Source: Anaerotruncus sp.
Lineage (GTDB): Bacteria > Bacillota > Clostridia > Oscillospirales > Ruminococcaceae
Direction: 5' to 3'
DNA: 41,402 nucleotides
Assembly (NCBI GenBank): GCA_021770005.1
Contig: JAETRV010000024.1
Coordinates: 1 to 41,402, forward strand
In this document: piece by piece, positions 27,677-39,840 of the stretch
How positions within the stretch are numbered: position 1 is the first letter of the stretch
Layout: every line of letters starts with the position of its first letter
Position numbers and translations under genes: made by a program
Notes under the pieces: model-generated
What the model saw: the letters and a program-made list of their open reading frames with translations, nothing else
Database searches by the model: none
Told to the model about the DNA's origin: nothing

Positions 27677-29062
27677 TTAGAAACGGAAGTACAGGAATGG
27701 ATTGTAGGTGGAATCCACTAGATAGGCCACCGACAGCAACAGGACCAATCCAAGGAATGGGATTTCCAGCCACTTGCAGAGCCTGGGCAGCCGGTCGCGG
27801 AGTAGATTGAGCACCGGCAGCGAGAATACCACTCCAACCAACATGATGATCCCGTAGTTGCGCAGATAGTACATCCAGTCATTCCCCCCATGTGGCAGGA
27901 AAAGCAGCGAAAAGAAAGAGCCGGTCTTGCTCATATCGGTAATTGCAAACAACACCCAGCTGATCTGAAGTCCAATCAGGACATAAAGGTGAGAAAATAC
28001 GCGGTGCTGGTCAAGGAAACGTCGGAGGAACAGCCGCTCAAAACTCTGCATCACGAAGAAATACAGCCCCCAGAGCACAAAATTCCAGGCTGCACCATGC
28101 CACAAACCTGTAGCGAACCAGATCAGGAACAGGTTCCGGTACTGTTTCCACCGGCTGACCCGGTTGCCGCCCAGCGGAAAATAAAGGTATTCCCGGAACC
28201 AGCCGCCAAGGGTCATATGCCATCTGCGCCAGAACTCGGTCAAGCTGCGGGAGATATAGGGATAGTTAAAGTTCTGCGGGAAGTGGAATCCAAGTGCACG
28301 TCCCATCCCGATTGCCATGAGTGAATAGCCGGAAAAATCAAAGTAGATTTGCAATGCGTAGGCGGTAAGCGCAACCCAGGCCCCCAAGCTAGAAAGTCCG
28401 GCAAATCCCGAGGATTCCACTTCGGTCCAGAGCGCGCCGATATTGTTGGCAAGCAACACCTTGCTCCCCAGACCGAGGATAAACAGCACGATCCCGTCCT
28501 GTATCGCATCAAGCGTGATCCGGCGGTCTTTGAGTTCCCGGTTGATGTCCGAATACTTCACGATCGGACCGGCGATCAGCTGTGGGAAGAGGACGACAAA
28601 CGTCCCAAAATCAATGATGTTACGCTCTACTTCGATCTTTCCAAAATAGACATCGATGGTATAGGTCATAATCTGGAAGGTGTAGAAACTGATGCCAAGC
28701 GGCAGGTTCTTAGTGACCTCCAGCATGGGGAAGGAGGTCCCGAACAGCGCATTGATATTCAGCAGCAAAAAGTTGCTGTATTTAAAAAACGCCAGAAATC
28801 CTACACTGAACACCACCGAAACCGCGAGAATCCCCCGGCAAAGATTCCGGCTGCCCCTCCACCGGCCGATCCCGAGTCCGGCGAGGTAGTTCACCAGGAT
28901 GATCGAAAGCATGATCGGGAAATACCGCACCTCTCCCCACGAATAGAAGATCAGGCTCACAAGCAAAAGGGTCAGGTTTTTACATTTTTTCGGCGTCAGG
29001 TAGTAAGCGAGGAATGCTGCCGGCAAAAACCGGAAGAGAAACAGCAGGCTGCTGAAAACCAT
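27677..29062 (-). CDS. MBOAT-family membrane-bound O-acyltransferase (AlgI-like)
   Basis: A 461-residue polytopic protein. The conserved block SLTEFWRRWHMTLGGWFREY, the following FPLGGNRVSRWKQYRN and the catalytic-histidine segment GLWHGAAWNFVLWG identify the AlgI/DltB branch. Such enzymes take an acyl donor on the cytoplasmic side and deliver the acyl group across the membrane to a partner, here the DHHW protein encoded next. The N-terminal SSLLFLFRFLPAAFLAYYL and YFDFSGYSLMAIGMGRALG also match. AGGAGGGG precedes the ATG at 29062. A likely terminator separates it from the upstream DUF4358 gene, so expression may depend on read-through or on a weak promoter that I could not place with confidence. 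Confidence 0.93.
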   Translation of the reverse strand: MVFSSLLFLFRFLPAAFLAYYLTPKKCKNLTLLLVSLIFYSWGEVRYFPIMLSIILVNYLAGLGIGRWRGSRNLCRGILAVSVVFSVGFLAFFKYSNFLLLNINALFGTSFPMLEVTKNLPLGISFYTFQIMTYTIDVYFGKIEVERNIIDFGTFVVLFPQLIAGPIVKYSDINRELKDRRITLDAIQDGIVLFILGLGSKVLLANNIGALWTEVESSGFAGLSSLGAWVALTAYALQIYFDFSGYSLMAIGMGRALGFHFPQNFNYPYISRSLTEFWRRWHMTLGGWFREYLYFPLGGNRVSRWKQYRNLFLIWFATGLWHGAAWNFVLWGLYFFVMQSFERLFLRRFLDQHRVFSHLYVLIGLQISWVLFAITDMSKTGSFFSLLFLPHGGNDWMYYLRNYGIIMLVGVVFSLPVLNLLRDRLPRLCKWLEIPFLGLVLLLSVAYLVDSTYNPFLYFRF

Positions 29063-31920: not shown

Positions 31921-32592
31921 ATGCTGAAAATTGCACCGTCCATCCTGTCCTGCGATTTCGCCAACCTCGAAGCGGAGGTTTCCGCCATGCAGCGCGCCGG
32001 GGCGGACATGATCCATGTTGATGTGATGGATGGGCATTTCGTTCCCAATCTGAGTCTTGGACTCCCTGTGGTCGCTTCCCTGCGCAGAAAGACCGACGCA
32101 TTTCTGGATGTGCACCTGATGATCTCCAGCCCCCTTTCCTATGCGGAAAAGTTTGTGGAGGCGGGCGCTGATCTCGTCACCTTCCATGTCGAGAGCGAGA
32201 GCGATATCCAGCAGACGATTGACGCGATCCGGCAGACCGGCAAACGGTGCGGCCTTTCGGTCAAACCCGACACCCCAGCGGAAGTGGTCTTCCCCTATCT
32301 CGAACAGATTGACCTTGTTCTGGTCATGACGGTGGAGCCCGGTTTCGGCGGGCAGAAGTTCCGGCCGGAGCTTTGCCCCAAAATCCGGGCAATCCGGCAG
32401 GAGATCGACCGGCGCGGGCTTTCGGTTGACCTTGAGGTCGATGGCGGCATTGATAACCAGACCATTTCACAGGCCGCGCAGGCGGGCGCAAATGTGTTTG
32501 TGGCGGGCAGCGCCCTTTTTTCACAGCCCGATTACCGGGAAGCAGTGGAGAAACTGCGCACCCATGCTCAGGGTTCCTCTTATATAGGTTAA
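31921..32592 (+). CDS. rpe: Ribulose-phosphate 3-epimerase
   Basis: A 223-residue TIM-barrel enzyme interconverting ribulose-5-phosphate and xylulose-5-phosphate in the pentose phosphate pathway. The N-terminus KIAPSILSCDFANL, the metal-ligand motif HVDVMDGHFVPNLSLG, the second ligand region LDVHLMISSP, the MTVEPGFGGQKF loop and the phosphate site VDGGIDNQT followed by GANVFVAGSALF are all present. The length is typical. The ATG at 31921 has a purine-rich GAGGGGG site. It converges on mecA with only nine bases between the stop codons and no obvious terminator. Confidence 0.97.
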   Translation: MLKIAPSILSCDFANLEAEVSAMQRAGADMIHVDVMDGHFVPNLSLGLPVVASLRRKTDAFLDVHLMISSPLSYAEKFVEAGADLVTFHVESESDIQQTIDAIRQTGKRCGLSVKPDTPAEVVFPYLEQIDLVLVMTVEPGFGGQKFRPELCPKIRAIRQEIDRRGLSVDLEVDGGIDNQTISQAAQAGANVFVAGSALFSQPDYREAVEKLRTHAQGSSYIG

Positions 32593-32601
32593 GGAGCGCT
32601 C

Positions 32602-33174
32602 TTATCCGAAATAGGAGGAGAGCAGGTCGATGGCATCCTTTTCGATGAGCAGCTCTGCATGTTCGTCCAGCCAGGCTGCCGCGACCGGTCCTTCCCCCCA
32701 GCGCGGCCCGAATTCATCCAGGACCGCAAGCGAACGGTTCTCAAGCACGTCGAGCGGATAGACTGCGAGCCGCCATTCCCCGTTGATCCGATAAAGCATA
32801 CTTTTTCGGATCCTGTGGGCGTACCGCTGGAACAGCTTCACCGACCCGCCGATCAAAGCGTCCACATCGGAAAACGCATAGATCACCGGCGATACAGCAT
32901 GCCGGCGCACCTTCCATCTGCGGGGCGGTCCATCCTGTGGGGACGCAAAAAGCAGGGCACAGCCGCCATCTTCCAGCAGGTAGATGCGGACCAGCAGACA
33001 GTCCTCCGGCTGAAACCCGACCTCCTTTTCCGCAATCTCGAGCAGGGCGAGCACCATCGCCTGTGTGGCCGGGTTGGCGCAGTCGATTCCCTCGTTGGAA
33101 AGACCGAGCGCCGTAAGCTCGGGCTCCGAAAGGCGGATACTCATCCTGTTGCGTCCCAGTTGCTTGATTTCCAT
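32602..33174 (-). CDS. mecA: MecA-like adaptor protein
   Basis: A 190-residue protein. The N-terminus (MEIKQLGRNRMSIRLSEPEL, then TALGLSNEGIDCANPATQ) resembles the substrate-binding domain of MecA/YpbH adaptors, followed by an acidic middle and a C-terminal domain (YAFSDVDALIGGSVKLFQRY) resembling the ClpC-binding half. Bacillus MecA (about 218 residues) delivers substrates such as ComK to ClpC/ClpP. The present protein is a little shorter and no competence genes are in view, so the client is unknown. It is divergent from the Rnf-like operon with only 51 bases between start codons. The ribosome binding site is GGGGGG. Confidence 0.72.
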   Translation of the reverse strand: MEIKQLGRNRMSIRLSEPELTALGLSNEGIDCANPATQAMVLALLEIAEKEVGFQPEDCLLVRIYLLEDGGCALLFASPQDGPPRRWKVRRHAVSPVIYAFSDVDALIGGSVKLFQRYAHRIRKSMLYRINGEWRLAVYPLDVLENRSLAVLDEFGPRWGEGPVAAAWLDEHAELLIEKDAIDLLSSYFG

Positions 33175-33225: not shown

Positions 33226-35448
33226 ATGGCAGGATTTTTATACCGGGGCATCTTGCTCCAACAACATAAAGAGCCGGCGCTCTCGCGGGATCTGCGGGAA
33301 TTTTTCAATGCGGATACCATCGGTATCCAGATGAACCGTCCTCAGGTGGAGGACCCCAACCGGCTTTCCGCCGACGAAATCTGTGAGATTGCGCGGGAGG
33401 CGAAGATCGTCGACGAGCGGGATGGTGTCCCCCTGATCGACAAGATGCTGCGGGCGCGGGTACGCAGGCTGCGCCTGTTGGTGGGCGATGCGATCGACGA
33501 TGAACCATACATCTCCAGTCAGCTCAACCCGCTGCTGAAAAACCAAGAGGTTGCTTTCTGCGGGCTTGCCCTGCTGCAAAAGGCGGTGAACGCGCCGCAG
33601 GCGTGCTTTGCTGTTTATCGCAACATGACCGACCTCGAAATCCGGATTCCCAAGACGATCGGTTCCTATAAAGTTCGCCGGATCCACGGACGTTATCCTG
33701 CCGAATACCGGGCGTCCAAATTCTACGGTTCCGAACGCGGGGTGCTTGAGATCGGGGTGGGCGCAATCATCCACCTTGCGCGCGCGGTCCTCTTCAATAA
33801 GCCGCAGACCACCACCTTTGTCACCGTTGCGGGTGACTGCATCGGTAACCCCACCAATCTGGAGGTTTCGCTCGGCATGACCGTCACCCAGACGCTCGAA
33901 CGGTGCGGCCTGATCGACGATCCGGTACGGGTGGTCATCGGCGGTTCGATGACCGGCATCAGCGTCATCGACACCGACAAAACTCTAATTAACCCCTCGA
34001 CTCGGGCAATCCTCGCGTTCCGCGCCCGGATCGGAGAGAGTGGTTTCAACTGCATCGGCTGTTCCCGGTGTGTGCACGCCTGCCCCGAGGGCCTGAACCC
34101 GTTTTTCCTCTACCGCAGCTTTCACCAGCGCCGGTATGAGGAATTCCGCAAATCCGACCCTCAGATGTGCATTGGATGCGGTTCGTGCAGCTATGTCTGC
34201 CCTGCCAAGCTCGACCTGACTGGCTCGATCCTGCGCGGGCAGGCTGAGATGCGCCGGATGGTCGGTTCGATCCGGCTATCCAAAGCGCTCGAACAGAAGA
34301 AAAAGGATGCGGAGTTCCAAAGCTACTATCAGGATTACCTGCTCTATCAGGAAGGAAAAGCCCAAAAGCGCGATCTGCGCCAGCTGGAAAAGGCGCGGCT
34401 CTCGAACGAACGCGCGGTGAAAGCGGAGCTTGAGGAAGCGGAAAAGCAGGCTGCGGCAACCTTAGAAGCTGCCAATGCTGCCGCACAGGCGGCGCTGGAG
34501 CAGGCGTTAAAAGCCGCCGCCGATCAGTTCCAACTGGAAGAGGAGACAGTTCAAGTCACGATCGAGGCCGCTCAGACGGTCCAGACGCAGACCGGGCAAC
34601 AGCTGGAACAGGTCCGGATGAACGCGCAGCGGGCACAGGAAGCCGCCCAGAAAGCGCACGAGCGGGCCGCGCAGGCGGACGCCCGGGTTTCCGCGTTGGA
34701 AAACGAGGTCAAACAGAAGGCTGCGGCCCAGCAGGACCTCGAAAAGATGCTGCCTTCCATCAAACAGGCGGTGTCCCGAAGCGAAGCCGAGGCGCGGCGG
34801 GCGGAAGAAGCGAAATCCGCGCTCGCGGGCGATAGCTCGGGAGAGGCGTTCCACTCGGCCAAAGCCGCCGCAAAGCAGGCTTCCGAAAGCGCGAAATTCG
34901 CGGCGAAAAATCTTGCGGATGCGGAGAAATCCGCAGAGAAAGCCGCGGCCGAAACGGCGAAGGCGAAAGAGCGCCTTGTCACTGCCCGGCTTGATGCGGA
35001 GCAGCAGCACCGGAACGCGGAATCACTCCGGATCACCGCACAAGAAGCGGCCAAGGCGATCGAGGGGGCCGCTGCACAGGTTTCGGGGCAGGAGCGGACG
35101 GTCGAATATACCGGGCAGGTATGCGCCGAAAAGCTCCAGGAAGCGCGGCAGATACGGGAGAAAGCCGATGCCGAAGCACAGGAGCGGTTCCGGCGCGAAA
35201 GTGAATCAGCCAAGGCGGCGTATGACGCCGCGATGCGGGCCGCTGCTGACGCATGGCAGACCGCGTCCGAGACGATTGCCTCCCAATATCAGGCAACCCG
35301 GACGTTCCTTGCACAGCGGCTCGCACAGACACAGGCCAATTCCGAAGCCGCACATGAGGCGGCAGAGCGTGCCACCTCCGATTGGGGCAGCCCGGACAGA
35401 AAATCCGCTGCCCACGAGCCTGTCAACATAGGGGAGGAAACCCAATGA
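33226..35448 (+). CDS. rnfC: RnfC-like subunit with altered flavin/NADH loop and long coiled-coil tail
   Basis: A 740-residue protein. Residues 1-270 follow RnfC order (EDPNRLSADEICEIAREAKI, then GDAIDDEPYIS, VTVAGDCIGNPTNLEVSLG). Where normal RnfC has the glycine-rich GxGGAGFPTxxK loop for FMN and NADH, this protein reads VDERDGVPLIDKM (residues 62-74). Two ferredoxin-like 4Fe-4S motifs are intact: C276-x2-C279-x2-C282-x3-C286 and C315-x2-C318-x2-C321-x3-C325. Residues about 375-715 form a highly charged, Ala/Glu/Gln/Lys-rich coiled coil; some proteobacterial RsxC proteins also have Ala-rich tails. AGGAGG-like GGAGG precedes the ATG. The stop overlaps rnfD by ATGA. It is clearly an RnfC homologue, but NADH oxidation is doubtful. 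Confidence 0.88.
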   Translation: MAGFLYRGILLQQHKEPALSRDLREFFNADTIGIQMNRPQVEDPNRLSADEICEIAREAKIVDERDGVPLIDKMLRARVRRLRLLVGDAIDDEPYISSQLNPLLKNQEVAFCGLALLQKAVNAPQACFAVYRNMTDLEIRIPKTIGSYKVRRIHGRYPAEYRASKFYGSERGVLEIGVGAIIHLARAVLFNKPQTTTFVTVAGDCIGNPTNLEVSLGMTVTQTLERCGLIDDPVRVVIGGSMTGISVIDTDKTLINPSTRAILAFRARIGESGFNCIGCSRCVHACPEGLNPFFLYRSFHQRRYEEFRKSDPQMCIGCGSCSYVCPAKLDLTGSILRGQAEMRRMVGSIRLSKALEQKKKDAEFQSYYQDYLLYQEGKAQKRDLRQLEKARLSNERAVKAELEEAEKQAAATLEAANAAAQAALEQALKAAADQFQLEEETVQVTIEAAQTVQTQTGQQLEQVRMNAQRAQEAAQKAHERAAQADARVSALENEVKQKAAAQQDLEKMLPSIKQAVSRSEAEARRAEEAKSALAGDSSGEAFHSAKAAAKQASESAKFAAKNLADAEKSAEKAAAETAKAKERLVTARLDAEQQHRNAESLRITAQEAAKAIEGAAAQVSGQERTVEYTGQVCAEKLQEARQIREKADAEAQERFRRESESAKAAYDAAMRAAADAWQTASETIASQYQATRTFLAQRLAQTQANSEAAHEAAERATSDWGSPDRKSAAHEPVNIGEETQ

Positions 35449-36515
35449 AACTGAGCAGACATCCCGCCCCGCACATCCGTCATCAGGAGAACAACCGGAC
35501 GCTGATGTCCGACGTTTTGATCCTCCTGATGGTGCTGATGGTGCTGGCCTATCTTTTTTACGGACTGCGCGCACTTGCTGTCTGCGGCGTATCGGTCCTG
35601 ACCGCAGTGCTCACCGATGCGGCCTGTACCCTGCTGCGCGGCAGGCGCCTGAACCTGTTTGACCTTTCCCCGGTGGTCACCGGAATGCTGATTGCGCTTT
35701 GTATGCCCGCCACCGTCAGCTTTAAGATCGTTGCGGCGGCAGCGGTTTTCGCAATCGCAATCGCCAAGCACCCCTTTGGCGGATTGGGGAACAACCTGTT
35801 CAACCCTGCGGCCTCGGGGATCTCGTTCGCCGCGATCTGCTGGCCCCGGCTGGTATTCGTCTATCCGATGCCATTCGCCAAAATTGGGGTACTGGGGACG
35901 GTCGCCGCGAACGCCACCGATTACTATTATACATATAGTTCGGTCAATGTGCAGGGGATTGCACAGGAGGTGAGCCTGCGGCTCTACCAAAATCCGGCCT
36001 TCGTGCTCAAGGTCGGCGGGGTCCCGACCAACGACCTCACCGAGATGCTGCTGGGCAACTATCCCGGCCCGATGGGCGCGACCAACATCCTCGTCCTGTT
36101 GACCTGCCTGGTCTACCTGCTCTTCCGCCGGACAGTCCGTTGGCAGATGCCGCTCCCTTTCCTCGGAACCTGTGCGCTGATTGCGTTCCTGTTCCCGCGC
36201 ACCGGGCAGAGCGGCCTGCGTTCGGTCGAATTTGAGCTCATGTCCGGTCTGTTGCTCTTCGGCGCGGTCTTTATGATCAGCGACCCGGTCACCAGCCCCA
36301 AGCGCGACTCCGCCTATTTCATCTATGGCATCTTTGCCGGGACCATCACCATGGCATTCCGATACTTTGGCGGGTTTGAGGAGAGTATGCCGTTTGCGAT
36401 CCTGCTCGCCAATGCGTTTGTCCCGTTGATTGACCGGTATAACGAACGGCTCCACCGCCTGATAAGGAGGAAACAGCTTGAATCTCGCAAAAATCAGAAC
36501 CTACAGGAAGCATAG
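35445..36515 (+). CDS. rnfD: RnfD-like membrane subunit lacking the flavin-threonine motif
   Basis: A 356-residue polytopic protein. HPAPHIRHQENNRTLMSDVL, KHPFGGLGNNLFNPAASG, the GAVFMISDPVTSPKRDS block and ANAFVPLIDRY are standard RnfD/NqrB features. Canonical RnfD has an S/Q-[GA]-A-T-P-L motif whose Thr carries covalent FMN. Here the equivalent stretch (about residues 180-200, YQNPAFVLKVGGVPTNDLTE) has no such motif. The only Gly-Ala-Thr (211-213, in PGPMGATNIL) aligns with the separate GxxGExS motif downstream. The protein may therefore not bind covalent flavin. Start ATG 35445 overlaps the rnfC stop; AGGGGAGG lies upstream. Its 3' end overlaps rnfE by 38 bases. Confidence 0.9.
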   Translation: MKLSRHPAPHIRHQENNRTLMSDVLILLMVLMVLAYLFYGLRALAVCGVSVLTAVLTDAACTLLRGRRLNLFDLSPVVTGMLIALCMPATVSFKIVAAAAVFAIAIAKHPFGGLGNNLFNPAASGISFAAICWPRLVFVYPMPFAKIGVLGTVAANATDYYYTYSSVNVQGIAQEVSLRLYQNPAFVLKVGGVPTNDLTEMLLGNYPGPMGATNILVLLTCLVYLLFRRTVRWQMPLPFLGTCALIAFLFPRTGQSGLRSVEFELMSGLLLFGAVFMISDPVTSPKRDSAYFIYGIFAGTITMAFRYFGGFEESMPFAILLANAFVPLIDRYNERLHRLIRRKQLESRKNQNLQEA

Positions 36516-37158
36516 CCGCTGGGCCGACGGGCTTTTCTGGAAAAATCCCGTCCTGGTGGGTGGTCTTGCCTTGCCGCTTGCAATCATTGTCAGCCACAAC
36601 CTCAAAAGCGCGGTCGCGATTTCGATCCTGATGGCCTGTTCGCTCATCCCGACCGTTCTCTTTGCCCTGTTGATCGGCCGGCGTCTGCCCCAGTGGATCG
36701 CTTCGATGCTTTATGCGGTCGTGGCGCTGGCGCTGGTGCTCGTGAGCGAGCCGCTGATCCTGCCGATCGCCCCCGGGATGAGTGATACCCTCGGCGTCTA
36801 TCTGCCGATCCTGTCGGTCAATACGGTGCTCTCCACGCTCTGTGCGCGCTGTGCCTCCAAACGCGTCCGGCCGTTCCTCATGGTGGTGGACGCGGTGGTC
36901 TATAGCGCCGGGTTTGCACTTGCAATGGCGCTGATTGCCTGTGTGCGCGAGCTGTTCGGCAGCAATACGATCTGGGGGCTCTCGGTCAAATTCCCGATTC
37001 GGACCCGTGGGATGCAGATCGCCTTTGCGGGCTTCATCCTTGTGGCGCTGTTTGGCGCGCTCTTCCGGGCTCTGCACCGGGGGATGGTTGCACTGCTCTG
37101 CCGTCGCTCTAGGCCCAAGGCGGAGACCGCGGGTCAGCCTTCGGGAGGTAGCTTATGA
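36478..37158 (+). CDS. rnfE: RnfE-like membrane subunit without the [2Fe-2S] cysteines
   Basis: A 226-residue, six-helix protein of the RnfE/RsxE/NqrD family: LFWKNPVLVGGLALPLAIIV matches WKNNxALVQLLGLCPLLAV, and LGVYLPILSVNTVLSTL matches LGIFIPLIVTNCIVVG. In normal RnfE one cysteine in each of these two stretches helps hold the intramembrane [2Fe-2S] cluster. Here the first stretch has no cysteine and the second has Thr116 in its place. A CxxC occurs a few residues later (C122, C125), out of the usual position. The start is TTG 36478, supported by AAGGAGG seven bases upstream, although it lies 38 bases inside rnfD. It overlaps rnfA by ATGA. Confidence 0.85.
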   Translation: MNLAKIRTYRKHSRWADGLFWKNPVLVGGLALPLAIIVSHNLKSAVAISILMACSLIPTVLFALLIGRRLPQWIASMLYAVVALALVLVSEPLILPIAPGMSDTLGVYLPILSVNTVLSTLCARCASKRVRPFLMVVDAVVYSAGFALAMALIACVRELFGSNTIWGLSVKFPIRTRGMQIAFAGFILVALFGALFRALHRGMVALLCRRSRPKAETAGQPSGGSL

Positions 37159-37757
37159 ATCTGCTGAATGATTTCCTGTTGATCGTCCTGAGTGCGATCG
37201 TCCTGCAAAATGCAATCTTTACCCGTGGGTTTGGTGCGAGCCGGGGCAGCCTGATGCGCACTTCTTCCCGGAAAATCCTGCAATTCGGATGTGCGCTGAC
37301 CGTCGTTGCAACCGTTGCTGCGCTCCTTGTGTGGCCGGTGCAGCTCCTCCTACGCGACCGGCTCGAGGCGGATGTCCAGCTCATTGCCCGATATGCCGCC
37401 ACCCTTGCCGGCATCTGCATTGTCTACATCGCAATCTGGCTGCTGACCAAATATTGCTTCCCCATCATCCATTATGACATCCGTGGCCTGCTCTCCAATG
37501 CGGCTTTCAACTCTGCAACCCTCGGTTCCCTGCTGATCGCCTTTTCGGGCGGTTACGGGCTGATACAGACGGTCGGCTTTGCGCTTGGCTCGGGGATCGG
37601 CTATACCCTGGCCGTCCTGCTGCTCTGCGAAGGCCGGCGGCGGATCGCCCTTTCGGATGTCCCGCGGGCGTTCCGGGGGGTGCCGGTCATGCTGCTCTAT
37701 GCGGGTATCCTTTCGCTCGCCATCTACGGCCTGATTGGGCACCAGCTCCCCACCTGA
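37155..37757 (+). CDS. rnfA: RnfA-like membrane subunit without the [2Fe-2S] cysteines
   Basis: A 200-residue, six-helix protein of the RnfA/RsxA/NqrE family. LLNDFLLIVLSAIVLQNAIF corresponds to the family's LLLxxxxxxLVNNFVL, and DVPRAFRGVPVMLLYAGILS matches DVPxPFRGxxIxLITAGLxS very well. The two cluster cysteines are replaced: the FLGxCPFxG position reads GFGASRGSL (Ser29), and the TTNCAVLG position reads AFNSATLG (Ser120). Both are Cys-to-Ser changes at conserved sites while flanking residues are kept. Frames are intact and translationally coupled, arguing against decay. A DUF4015 gene follows after 25 bases with no terminator. Confidence 0.86.
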   Translation: MNLLNDFLLIVLSAIVLQNAIFTRGFGASRGSLMRTSSRKILQFGCALTVVATVAALLVWPVQLLLRDRLEADVQLIARYAATLAGICIVYIAIWLLTKYCFPIIHYDIRGLLSNAAFNSATLGSLLIAFSGGYGLIQTVGFALGSGIGYTLAVLLLCEGRRRIALSDVPRAFRGVPVMLLYAGILSLAIYGLIGHQLPT

Positions 37758-37782: not shown

Positions 37783-39051
37783 ATGCCAAAGGCAGTCAAG
37801 GTAAAGCGCTATAAAAATATCTATAAGCGCCGCACCCCCCTCTCGATCCTGTTGCGGATCGTCTGCATCGTGGTGGTGATCGGCCTGCTTGGGTTTATCG
37901 GCTGGAGCGCCTATGAACCGGTTCGGGCCTATCTCGACAGCATCGCCTTTGAATGGAAAAATAACCCTACTCCCTCCCTTCCGGAACTCCCGGAGCCGCC
38001 TGCCGTGTCCGAGCCGGAAACGTCCAGCCCGGAATCCGTACCAAAGCCGCTGCCCGAACCAGCGGTATCCTCGCCCAAACCCGAGCCAACAGAGCCGGAG
38101 AACTCAGAACAAATCCCATCCGGTGTGCAGCTCCAGGGCGCCTATCTGCCGGTTTCAGACCTGCTTGACCCGAATCTGCTCGCCGCGCGGCTCTCCGACT
38201 TTCAGGAGGCAGGCTATACGGCGGTGTTGATCGATCTCAAGGATACCAATGGCAGCCTGCTCTACCGTTCCCAGCGGGGACGTGCCCCGCTCGAAGAAGG
38301 GATCACCCCTTACGACCTGTCCGCAGTCTGTGAGCAGATCCGCGAGGCGGGGATGCTCCCGATCGGACGGATGCACGCTTTCCGTGATTATACGGCAGCA
38401 CTCTCAGACAACAATATGGCGGTACAGTATCTCGATACCCGCGAGCACTGGCTCGACAACGCCCGGGAGAAGGGCGGAAAGCCCTGGCTGAACCCCTATT
38501 CCGAACAAGCCCGCGCCTATCTGGTGGGGCTGGCGGAGGAGGCGGTTTCGATGGGGGTCGGGCAGATCCTGCTCGACAGCGTGATGTTCCCCGTCGGGGT
38601 CCGGCTGGACGCCGCAACCTACGGCGAAACCGGTGATGTCAGCCGTTCGGAGGTGCTTTCCGCATTTATCCAGCAGGTTTCCAGCGCGGTTTCTGCTAAA
38701 GGCGGGACGGTAAGCCTCTTGGTTCGAGCGGCGGATGCATTTTCCAATCCAGACAGTCTCGGCGGAGACCCGCTTGTGCTCTCTGACCAGATCACTTTAG
38801 ATCTTTCCCCGGCAACTCTAGGGGAGAATTTCTCTGCGGGTGGGTTCACGGCCGAACACCCCATGCAGGACCCGGGCGATACCGTCCGGAGGATGCTTGA
38901 CGCCCTGTCAGGCAGGCTCCCGGCGCAGTTTACCGCGCTGATTCAGGACCCAAACTATAGCTCCATAATGGTGCAGGCGATACAGGATGTATTAAAAGAA
39001 AACGGTGTGGAAAACTATTTGATCGTGCAAGACAGTCCCTATCCCAACTGA
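37783..39051 (+). CDS. Membrane-anchored DUF4015 (putative glycoside hydrolase) protein
   Basis: A 422-residue protein with a basic N-terminus, one transmembrane helix (about 20-43), a Pro/Glu/Ser-rich spacer (about 62-110) and an extracytoplasmic TIM-barrel-like domain of the DUF4015 family. Characteristic strands are GYTAVLIDLKDTNGSLLY, AVCEQIREAGMLPIGRMHAF, then KPWLNPYSEQARAYL and GQILLDSVMFP. The family is annotated as putative glycoside hydrolase from fold similarity; no activity or substrate is established. It lies 25 bases after rnfA with its own GGAGG site and no terminator between, so it is probably in the Rnf-like operon, an unusual partner for an electron-transfer complex. Confidence 0.85.
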   Translation: MPKAVKVKRYKNIYKRRTPLSILLRIVCIVVVIGLLGFIGWSAYEPVRAYLDSIAFEWKNNPTPSLPELPEPPAVSEPETSSPESVPKPLPEPAVSSPKPEPTEPENSEQIPSGVQLQGAYLPVSDLLDPNLLAARLSDFQEAGYTAVLIDLKDTNGSLLYRSQRGRAPLEEGITPYDLSAVCEQIREAGMLPIGRMHAFRDYTAALSDNNMAVQYLDTREHWLDNAREKGGKPWLNPYSEQARAYLVGLAEEAVSMGVGQILLDSVMFPVGVRLDAATYGETGDVSRSEVLSAFIQQVSSAVSAKGGTVSLLVRAADAFSNPDSLGGDPLVLSDQITLDLSPATLGENFSAGGFTAEHPMQDPGDTVRRMLDALSGRLPAQFTALIQDPNYSSIMVQAIQDVLKENGVENYLIVQDSPYPN

Positions 39052-39065
39052 CAGGAGGATTCCCC

Positions 39066-39620
39066 ATGGCATTTAAAGTCCGGCTGTTTCCCGGTGCGCC
39101 CGATTTCGAGACGCTGCATGTTGCCAAGCTGACCTGTTTCCCGCTCGAAACGCGCGATTACCGGCCTTATTCTCAGGTGCGCATCTGCTTTGCGGCGGAT
39201 GGCCTGCATCTTCAGCTTTTGAGCTTTGAATCCAAGCCGCTCCCCAATAGCCGGATGGAAGCGGTCCTACAATTTACAGGAGGTGATCCGCCAATCCTGC
39301 TCTCGCTTCAGGCGGACGGCGCTTGCTCTGCCGCTGTTGGAAGCGCTTCGGAGCCGCTGGAGGGCGTTTCGGTACACCTATTTGAGGGAGAAGATTTACA
39401 AGGTGTGTACTGGGGTGGAAATATCATCGTTCCCACCTGCCTGCTGAACCGTTATGTCAGCGGGTTCTCCGCCCGGCCGGGTGTCACCTTCCGGGGAAAT
39501 TTTTATAAGACCTGCGAAAATTCCCGGCGTCCGCATTATGGGTGCTTTTTTCCGGCGGATTTCTCCCTTTCCCGTGAAGATCCCCGAAATTTCGGGGAAT
39601 TTGTGGTGATCGATTACTAA
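39066..39620 (+). CDS. CBM9-like domain protein
   Basis: A 184-residue protein without a signal peptide. The C-terminal half has the pattern of carbohydrate-binding family 9-like proteins: GVTFRGNFYKTCENSRRPHY, then GCFFPADFSLSREDPRNFGE. These correspond to the GNFYKCG...HPHW...P..DFH.P..FG motif of that family. The N-terminal half (about 1-90) is less recognisable. Such small stand-alone CBM9-like proteins are common in Clostridia and have no defined role. It follows the DUF4015 gene by 14 bases with AGGAGG, so it closes the same operon. A perfect CCCCGAAATTTCGGGG hairpin lies inside its last codons. Confidence 0.72.
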   Translation: MAFKVRLFPGAPDFETLHVAKLTCFPLETRDYRPYSQVRICFAADGLHLQLLSFESKPLPNSRMEAVLQFTGGDPPILLSLQADGACSAAVGSASEPLEGVSVHLFEGEDLQGVYWGGNIIVPTCLLNRYVSGFSARPGVTFRGNFYKTCENSRRPHYGCFFPADFSLSREDPRNFGEFVVIDY

Positions 39621-39788: not shown

Positions 39789-39840
39789 TTGGTGGGCATG
39801 CCCACCAACGTAAAATAACCTGTTATTTTACGTTGGTTTT
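39789..39840 (+). terminator. Mutually exclusive hairpins, candidate attenuator
   Basis: TTGGTGGGCATGCCCACCAA (39789-39808) is a perfect 20-base palindrome. A 16-bp stem follows (39804-39819 with 39822-39837) and ends in a short T-run. The two share ACCAA (39804-39808), so only one can form in RNA. The second resembles a terminator with a weak T-tract, 49 bases before the hemerythrin fusion gene. Confidence 0.65.

Follow-up and report, generated by a model that had tools for sequence, protein, structure and literature searches.

The Rnf-like operon

The stretch of DNA analysed here, referred to below as the window, comprises the 41,402 nucleotides at positions 1-41,402 of contig JAETRV010000024.1 from Anaerotruncus sp. 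(GCA_021770005.1), a genome of 2.93 Mb in 155 contigs. At positions 33226-37757 it carries four plus-strand open reading frames (ORFs), without internal stops, that encode RnfC-, RnfD-, RnfE- and RnfA-like proteins and form one tight operon with successive overlaps of 7 nt (C/D), 38 nt (D/E) and 4 nt (E/A). These clean frames, overlaps and family matches bear out an original prediction, made from the letters alone, of intact, overlapping rnfC, D, E and A homologues within a single operon. Neither RnfG nor RnfB is encoded at the window locus and, the complex specified by this operon is very probably no ferredoxin:NAD+ pump.

The RnfC-like protein (33226-35448, plus strand, 740 aa) matches TIGR01945 with 147 bits, below the cut-off of 246; the match begins at profile position 109, leaving the N-terminal part unmatched, and the domain that binds flavin mononucleotide (FMN) and NADH is degenerate. 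An AlphaFold2 model of its residues 1-346 has a mean predicted local distance difference test score (pLDDT) of 78.4, and the best Foldseek match of this model is RnfC in chain C of 9eri (E 7.1e-23). The remaining three genes, all on the plus strand, encode membrane proteins: an RnfD-like protein of 357 aa, counted from 35442 (35442-36515; PF03116, E 1.5e-81, with TIGR01946 above its cut-off), an RnfE-like protein with a TTG start (36478-37158; PF02508, E 9.3e-23) and an RnfA-like protein (37155-37757; PF02508, E 2.3e-17). Among the seven window proteins scanned, none matched an FMN-bind domain, the RnfD-like protein carrying PF03116 alone, and profiles for NqrF and NqrC likewise found no match among the seven neighbouring proteins scanned. 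Among named relatives, Anaerotruncus sp. G3(2012) is the nearest found, with an RnfD identity of 95%.

The window RnfC ends in a tail of ~400 aa rich in Ala, Gln and Glu (34260-35448), which is Ala-rich from about residue 345. RnfC is 576-1018 aa long in loci of the same genus, compared with 344-417 aa in the remaining loci of this kind. A long Ala-rich tail is also a feature of E. coli RsxC.

Loss of cofactor-binding sites

Residues were counted over 33 related loci of the window's kind (the f1 type), 16 with RnfC and 17 without, which are termed stripped here, and were compared with a canonical reference of 27 loci from the same order. One further locus (L051), whose RnfE was missed by the first search, stands outside both these counts and the combined tree described below, and L073 (a 43 aa fragment) together with L050, L060 and L076 (contig ends at which D and E do not occur together) stand outside the tree. 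Cofactor roles and residue numbering follow the A. woodii Rnf structure, as given in the consulted sections of its report (PMC11889175).

The four cysteines that ligate the membrane [2Fe-2S] cluster are all replaced in the window, C25 and C108 of RnfE by Pro and Thr, and C25 and C113 of RnfA by Ser in both cases. Across the stripped loci, neither RnfE position is a cysteine in any of the 33, and in RnfA a cysteine is present at C25 in one locus and at C113 in 17. No stripped locus retains more than two of the four, and L043 alone retains two; no replacement ligand conserved at these positions was found in the alignment of stripped rows. The threonine of RnfD that carries covalent FMN, found within AATPL in the canonical copy of the same genome (L005), is Asn in the window. 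It is absent from 30 of the 33 stripped loci overall, including all 16 with RnfC, and present in three of the 17 without (L101, L109 and L110, where it falls in a gapped stretch, TTPAS). The loss of these sites from the stripped copy is not attributable to chance, since the canonical loci of the same order keep the four membrane cysteines and the RnfD threonine in 27/27 cases. RnfG and RnfB are encoded beside none of the 33 stripped loci.

RnfC has been altered further. Its FMN/NADH motif reads GLGGAGFPTHIKM in canonical L005 and DERDGVPLIDKM in the window, and the canonical NAAECEPYI has become DAIDDEPYI. The Gly-rich FMN/NADH (GG) loop is absent, and its place is taken by an acidic motif that reads DERDG in the genus of the window, in all 15 readable rows, L008 being cut by a contig end. 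Three aspartates (D63, D66 and D92) are invariant over 14 rows and constitute new acidic positions at the sites that the Gly-rich loop and the ECEP motif occupy in canonical RnfC. The expectation that RnfC residues had simply been substituted is thus correct for the FMN/NADH loop and too modest for the protein as a whole, because the N-terminal domain is missing entirely from the window protein; L061 and L057 retain sequence of that length.

Retained features and selection

The stripped complex has kept a defined subset of the Rnf apparatus. Two motifs predicted to bind [4Fe-4S] clusters are intact in the window RnfC (CIGCSRCVHACP and CIGCGSCSYVCP), and all eight of their cysteines are present in each of the 16 stripped loci with RnfC. 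The asparagine and aspartate of the RnfD riboflavin site (N123 and D249 of A. woodii, as mapped by alignment) are also present in the window, and one non-covalent flavin site in RnfD may therefore survive. This pair is found in 15/16 loci with RnfC and in 9/17 without, a contrast that is suggestive only, as the rows are related. The original prediction had each subunit losing its cofactor residues: that is so for the membrane cysteines, the RnfD threonine and the RnfC FMN/NADH loop, but not every flavin site has gone, because the riboflavin residues are kept. In RnfE, the R67-E115 ion pair of A. woodii has been tied to Na+ entry in the sections of the structural report used here (PMC11889175). 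Within the stripped loci that lack RnfC, R67 is kept in 14/17 and E115 in 15/17, whilst the cysteines are lost, and both residues are kept in 4/4 stripped loci of family f7, which is described below.

The genes of the window operon are under purifying selection. Between the window and L006, the ratio of nonsynonymous to synonymous substitution rates (dN/dS) is 0.064, 0.042, 0.116 and 0.146 for C, D, E and A, respectively, in keeping with the earlier view that simple decay does not account for the losses; the neighbouring genes give 0.102 (DUF4015), 0.099 (mecA) and 0.078 (rpe). Further stripped pairs reach 0.30 in the f1 group and 0.44 for RnfE of f7. Long low-complexity extensions of RnfE were also seen, N-terminal in stripped f7 loci (L112, 6357-7874) and C-terminal in canonical f4 loci (L093, 6875-8335).

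A canonical rnfCDGEAB operon, the presence of which had been proposed as a check, lies elsewhere in the window genome on contig C22 (L005), adjacent to an ApbE gene, and is the single canonical set detected there. In an unrooted combined tree of D, E and A this copy groups with L065, L077 and L078. The existence of this second copy, together with losses shared among the 33 loci, upholds the idea of a paralogue that has changed function while retaining its membrane scaffold and RnfC clusters, with a transporter, a sensor or a different electron path as candidate functions. The same genome has one more RnfC-like match, its third and a weak one (G000:C145:15587-16483, 57.8 bits).

Genomic neighbourhood and distribution

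Downstream of rnfA by 25 nt lies a gene encoding a DUF4015 protein (37783-39051, plus strand; PF13200, E 5.7e-27), a domain labelled in Pfam as a putative glycosyl hydrolase. The N terminus of this protein is basic, and its AlphaFold2 model (mean pLDDT 83.6) predicts a long N-terminal helix (residues 20-60), a linker and an α/β domain resembling glycoside hydrolases; Foldseek ranks 4s1a, a hypothetical protein, and PgaB of E. coli highest, followed by many glycoside hydrolases, all with modest TM-scores. The aspartate of its ILLD..FP stretch is variable over 29 aligned rows. The next gene (39066-39620, plus strand) encodes a 184 aa protein with a weak CBM9-like match (E 0.0042, below the cut-off) and, among the loci scanned, was found in ten loci of the same genus only. 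A possible intrinsic terminator with a 15-pair stem follows 3' of the operon (39804-39837, plus strand), although the consensus scan returned 12 such candidates in the region against 7.1 expected. Upstream lie two syntenic markers, a divergent mecA-like gene (32602-33174, minus strand; PF05389, E 9.4e-12) and an ORF read by eye as rpe, encoding ribulose-phosphate 3-epimerase (31921-32592, plus strand). An MBOAT-like acyltransferase ORF, identified by eye only, is located at 27677-29062 on the minus strand.

The window RnfA was used to search 61 genomes, 37 from the same family and 24 from other members of the order, and matches were obtained in 55. The stripped locus recurs in 30 of the 37 family members, three of which (G019, G033 and G036) are represented by contig-edge pieces only. 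It also occurs in three of the 24 other order members (G040, G050, the latter from RnfA alone, and G058), besides G042, which is of the f7 type. A second RnfA match lies elsewhere in 28 of the 30 family genomes with a stripped locus, the exceptions being G011 and G032 (84-86% complete); the full reading of such second copies covers the window's own genome. At class level, an RnfA profile search of 156 genomes, taking matches to E 1e-20 only, a limit that divergent copies of the f7 kind could escape, returned one match at 249 bits, the window itself, and the next at 150 bits. This partial test revealed no stripped copy in other orders of the class: of 19 loci fetched, 12 gave a motif readout and seven did not, and of the 12, nine have both canonical cysteine motifs, whilst L136, L142 and L151 were read in another frame.

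The recurrent gene order is rpe, the mecA-like gene, (C)DEA and DUF4015, with the mecA-like gene lacking from several loci. D, E and A are all present in each of the 34 f1-type loci uncut by a contig end (the 33 tree rows and L051), the RnfE of L075 being only 134 aa long. RnfC is missing from 17/33 stripped loci; in 16 of these rpe lies upstream with no RnfC between, and L064 begins at a contig edge. A dedicated RnfC was not found elsewhere in 15 genomes lacking it at the locus, where the best RnfC matches score 123-202 bits, compared with 526-584 for true paralogues and 163-171 for canonical copies. One additional RnfC match each was recorded in G023 and G024 (44.6 and 131.9 bits), that of G024 qualifying the negative for this genome. 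DUF4015 follows rnfA in 31 of the 33 stripped loci.

Within the order, 54 DUF4015 loci were fetched, of which three (L131-L133) lack DUF4015 by profile, and rnf genes adjoin it in 30 of the 51 counted. In four loci (L114, L124, L126 and L130) DUF4015 directly adjoins the mecA-like gene with no rnf genes between them, as if these had been deleted. A PF02508 protein is absent entirely from two of the corresponding genomes, G044 (L130, on one contig) and G130 (L124), whilst G072 and G090 retain a pair elsewhere.

Probable origin and repeated loss

In other families a canonical rnfCDGEAB operon is followed by DUF4015; this arrangement is seen in 18 of the 27 canonical loci, a count from a DUF4015-enriched sample that is not a frequency. 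A divergent mecA-like gene lies upstream of canonical rnf in L074 and L104, as does rpe in L087 (at 43 nt) and in L093 and L094 (at 752-879 nt). Because DUF4015 follows canonical rnf operons in other families, the stripped operon probably occupies the old rnf site linked to DUF4015 and has shed its redox components, with the C22 canonical operon representing a second type; this reading is drawn from synteny and an unrooted tree.

Stripping is not confined to the f1 type to which the window belongs. It is also seen in genus g33 of family f7 and genus g63 of family f3, with four genomes each. The four f7 loci (L108, L112, L113 and L115) have the order CDEA-DUF4015 and lack RnfG, RnfB and the membrane cysteines, with Asn in place of the FMN threonine and a changed RnfC loop, whereas a fifth member of this genus carries a canonical locus (L095). 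The f3 loci (L097, L098, L100 and L102) keep the RnfD threonine and the RnfC cluster cysteines and have lost three membrane cysteines (L098, L100 and L102) or all four (L097). At the RnfG position L097 has an 80 aa ORF that by eye resembles the RnfG membrane helix alone, and in L100 the RnfG motif is mutated and RnfB was undetected. No second PF02508 pair was found in any of the eight stripped f7 and f3 genomes. The flavin transferase ApbE is absent from all four stripped f7 genomes (90-98% complete) and present in the canonical genome of the same genus (G097, carrying L095). The f3 genomes, all four only 85-87% complete, are divided: ApbE accompanies an RnfG with an intact SGAT motif (G079 and G096) and is absent where RnfG is truncated or mutated (G109 and G122).

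Two long branches (L057 and L075) were excluded from the single-gene trees. In the RnfD tree the stripped f7 loci group with canonical f7 loci (support 91) and the f3 loci with canonical f3 L070 (99), and a single clade of all stripped loci is rejected by the approximately unbiased test (p-AU 0.016). When all f7 loci were held together in the RnfC tree, the likelihood was better than that of the free search (p-AU 0.79), and the combined D, E and A tree supports a separate origin for f3 (98). On these grounds at least two separate losses of redox parts are fairly supported, and L095 and L112, which belong to one genus, make a third likely. Several results pull the other way. The RnfC tree is compatible with one origin of all stripped loci (p-AU 0.16); RnfD permits a joint clade of f1 and f7 stripped loci (p-AU 0.52), which the unconstrained RnfC search recovers (95.8); and in the combined tree the f7 loci fall outside the canonical ones, on a long branch.

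Possible functions of the stripped complex

In published models, as far as the portions of PMC11889175 drawn on here go, Rnf couples electron flow to ion movement by way of the cluster that lies in the membrane between RnfA and RnfE, and in A. woodii the removal of the B8 cluster or the membrane cluster, or of flavin-site residues in RnfG or RnfD, abolished ferredoxin-dependent NAD+ reduction. With RnfB, RnfG, the membrane cluster and the covalent flavin gone, the electron path of Rnf cannot run in the window complex. The repeated stripping of this pump among relatives suggests that the membrane core has another job. The reading favoured here, for which confidence and doubt are evenly balanced, is that a former Rnf operon lost redox pumping and now provides a transporter-like D/E/A core coupled to an enzyme of the envelope, RnfC serving as a redox lid in the group to which the window belongs. 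Ferredoxin:NAD+ oxidoreductase activity and redox-driven ion pumping would have been lost and a second job of RnfD, E and A retained; these subunits would form an alternating-access core that handles an ion or a solute of the envelope and has a functional link to DUF4015, a glycosidase-like protein anchored in the membrane. Where RnfC is kept, as in the window's group, its [4Fe-4S] clusters and the RnfD riboflavin could serve as a redox-sensing or short electron-feeding lid, and in about half of the family, where this lid is gone, D, E and A would work redox-free.

A number of observations count against this proposal. The ion-path residues are mostly lost from the window's group (R67 is kept in 5/16 and E115 in 3/16 stripped loci with RnfC, and the window has Ala at both), which weakens the ion-transport reading there. 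The link to DUF4015 is not obligate: two loci, L059 and L062, have D-E-A but no DUF4015, and 21/51 DUF4015 loci, some of them cut by contig ends, have no adjoining rnf gene. The perfect conservation of the RnfC cysteines, moreover, suits real electron transfer as well as it does sensing. In an alternative reading the complex is a short transmembrane electron conduit, the RnfC clusters accepting electrons from a cytosolic donor, ferredoxin or another, and handing them via the RnfD riboflavin to a putative outside acceptor without ion pumping. Such a conduit, which we regard as possible but improbable, draws on the full set of cluster cysteines and on the contrast in N123/D249 retention between loci with and without RnfC, residue counts that are phylogenetically non-independent, and on the electron export proposed, in the parts of PMC10979944 used here, for two-subunit Nqr/Rnf-like complexes whose RnfD-like subunit is unflavinylated. 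However, the operon encodes no flavinylated, RnfG-like extracytoplasmic acceptor, roughly half of the family keeps D, E and A without RnfC, and the retention of E and A is left unexplained.

An accessory or regulatory role towards the canonical Rnf of the same cell, for example by subunit pairing or by titration of RnfB/RnfG, would fit the second RnfA match present in most family genomes with a stripped copy; it is unlikely, since the stripped g33 and g63 genomes have no other PF02508 pair and the complex acts alone there. The many lost functional sites and the intermediate states of the f3 lineage might instead be those of a decaying, functionless remnant, but purifying selection (dN/dS 0.04-0.15 for the window genes) and conservation speak strongly against simple decay: the frames are open, the operon order is family-wide and new acidic RnfC positions are conserved, so that this account is very hard to credit. 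Equally implausible is a functional Rnf that holds its cofactors at alternative residues or in subunits encoded elsewhere. The predicted RnfC fold is kept, yet no conserved substitute ligands occur at the four cysteine positions, RnfG and RnfB are beside no stripped locus and the genome holds one canonical set.

The proposal of a transporter-like core can be taken further, though this extension is doubtful: the DUF4015-linked Rnf of this order may always have had two jobs, ion pumping and a redox-free envelope function, with two, probably three, lineages having dropped the redox job to yield a class of cofactor-free transporters or channels. The removal of redox parts in more than one lineage, partly stepwise and with the core kept, offers a clean way to ask what RnfD, RnfE and RnfA do alone. 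It is also a warning that energy conservation driven by ferredoxin should not be read from matches to Rnf families alone: the four g33 and four g63 genomes would score as Rnf-positive, yet their sole Rnf is stripped or partly stripped.

Relationship to known systems

Full-text literature searches turned up no paper that, judged by its title and the start of its abstract, deals with a cofactor-less Rnf, with subscription journals lying outside this scope. The Rnf complex itself (RnfABCDGE; structures 9eri, 7zc6 and 8ahx) shares with the window homologous C, D, E and A subunits, the same gene order minus G and B, the two RnfC [4Fe-4S] motifs and the predicted riboflavin residues of RnfD. It differs in possessing RnfB, RnfG, the membrane [2Fe-2S] ligands, the covalent FMN site, and the FMN/NADH loop and N-terminal domain of RnfC. 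Because several defining features of Rnf are lacking, the window complex is placed outside Rnf itself, as a new variant inside the Rnf/Nqr superfamily.

Na+-NQR is thought to derive from a duplicated rnf operon minus rnfB, and its RnfC homologue, NqrA, is without redox cofactors, as stated in the sections of PMC4014512 and PMC12174285 consulted. The loss of rnfB after duplication would be a shared feature; by contrast, the same sources describe NQR as having kept a transmembrane electron path and gained NqrF (PMC4014512, PMC12174285), whereas the window complex retained the RnfC clusters and lost the membrane ones. The two-subunit Nqr/Rnf-like complexes (Meheust et al. 2021; PMC10979944) resemble it in having an RnfD-like subunit without the flavinylation threonine but, in the part of that account drawn on, combine an RnfG-like flavoprotein with an RnfD-like protein fused to an NAD-binding domain, an arrangement not encountered among the window proteins scanned. 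Likeness to PgaB and glycoside hydrolases of the DUF4015 type is confined to the DUF4015 partner, whose predicted fold matches 4s1a and E. coli PgaB. Ammonium and urea transporters are not known to need E and A partners. The fold of RnfD, the largest subunit, is related to that of these solute transporters according to the relevant passages of PMC12174285. The nearest precedents for the window complex are NQR and the two-subunit Nqr/Rnf-like complexes with an unflavinylated RnfD-like protein.

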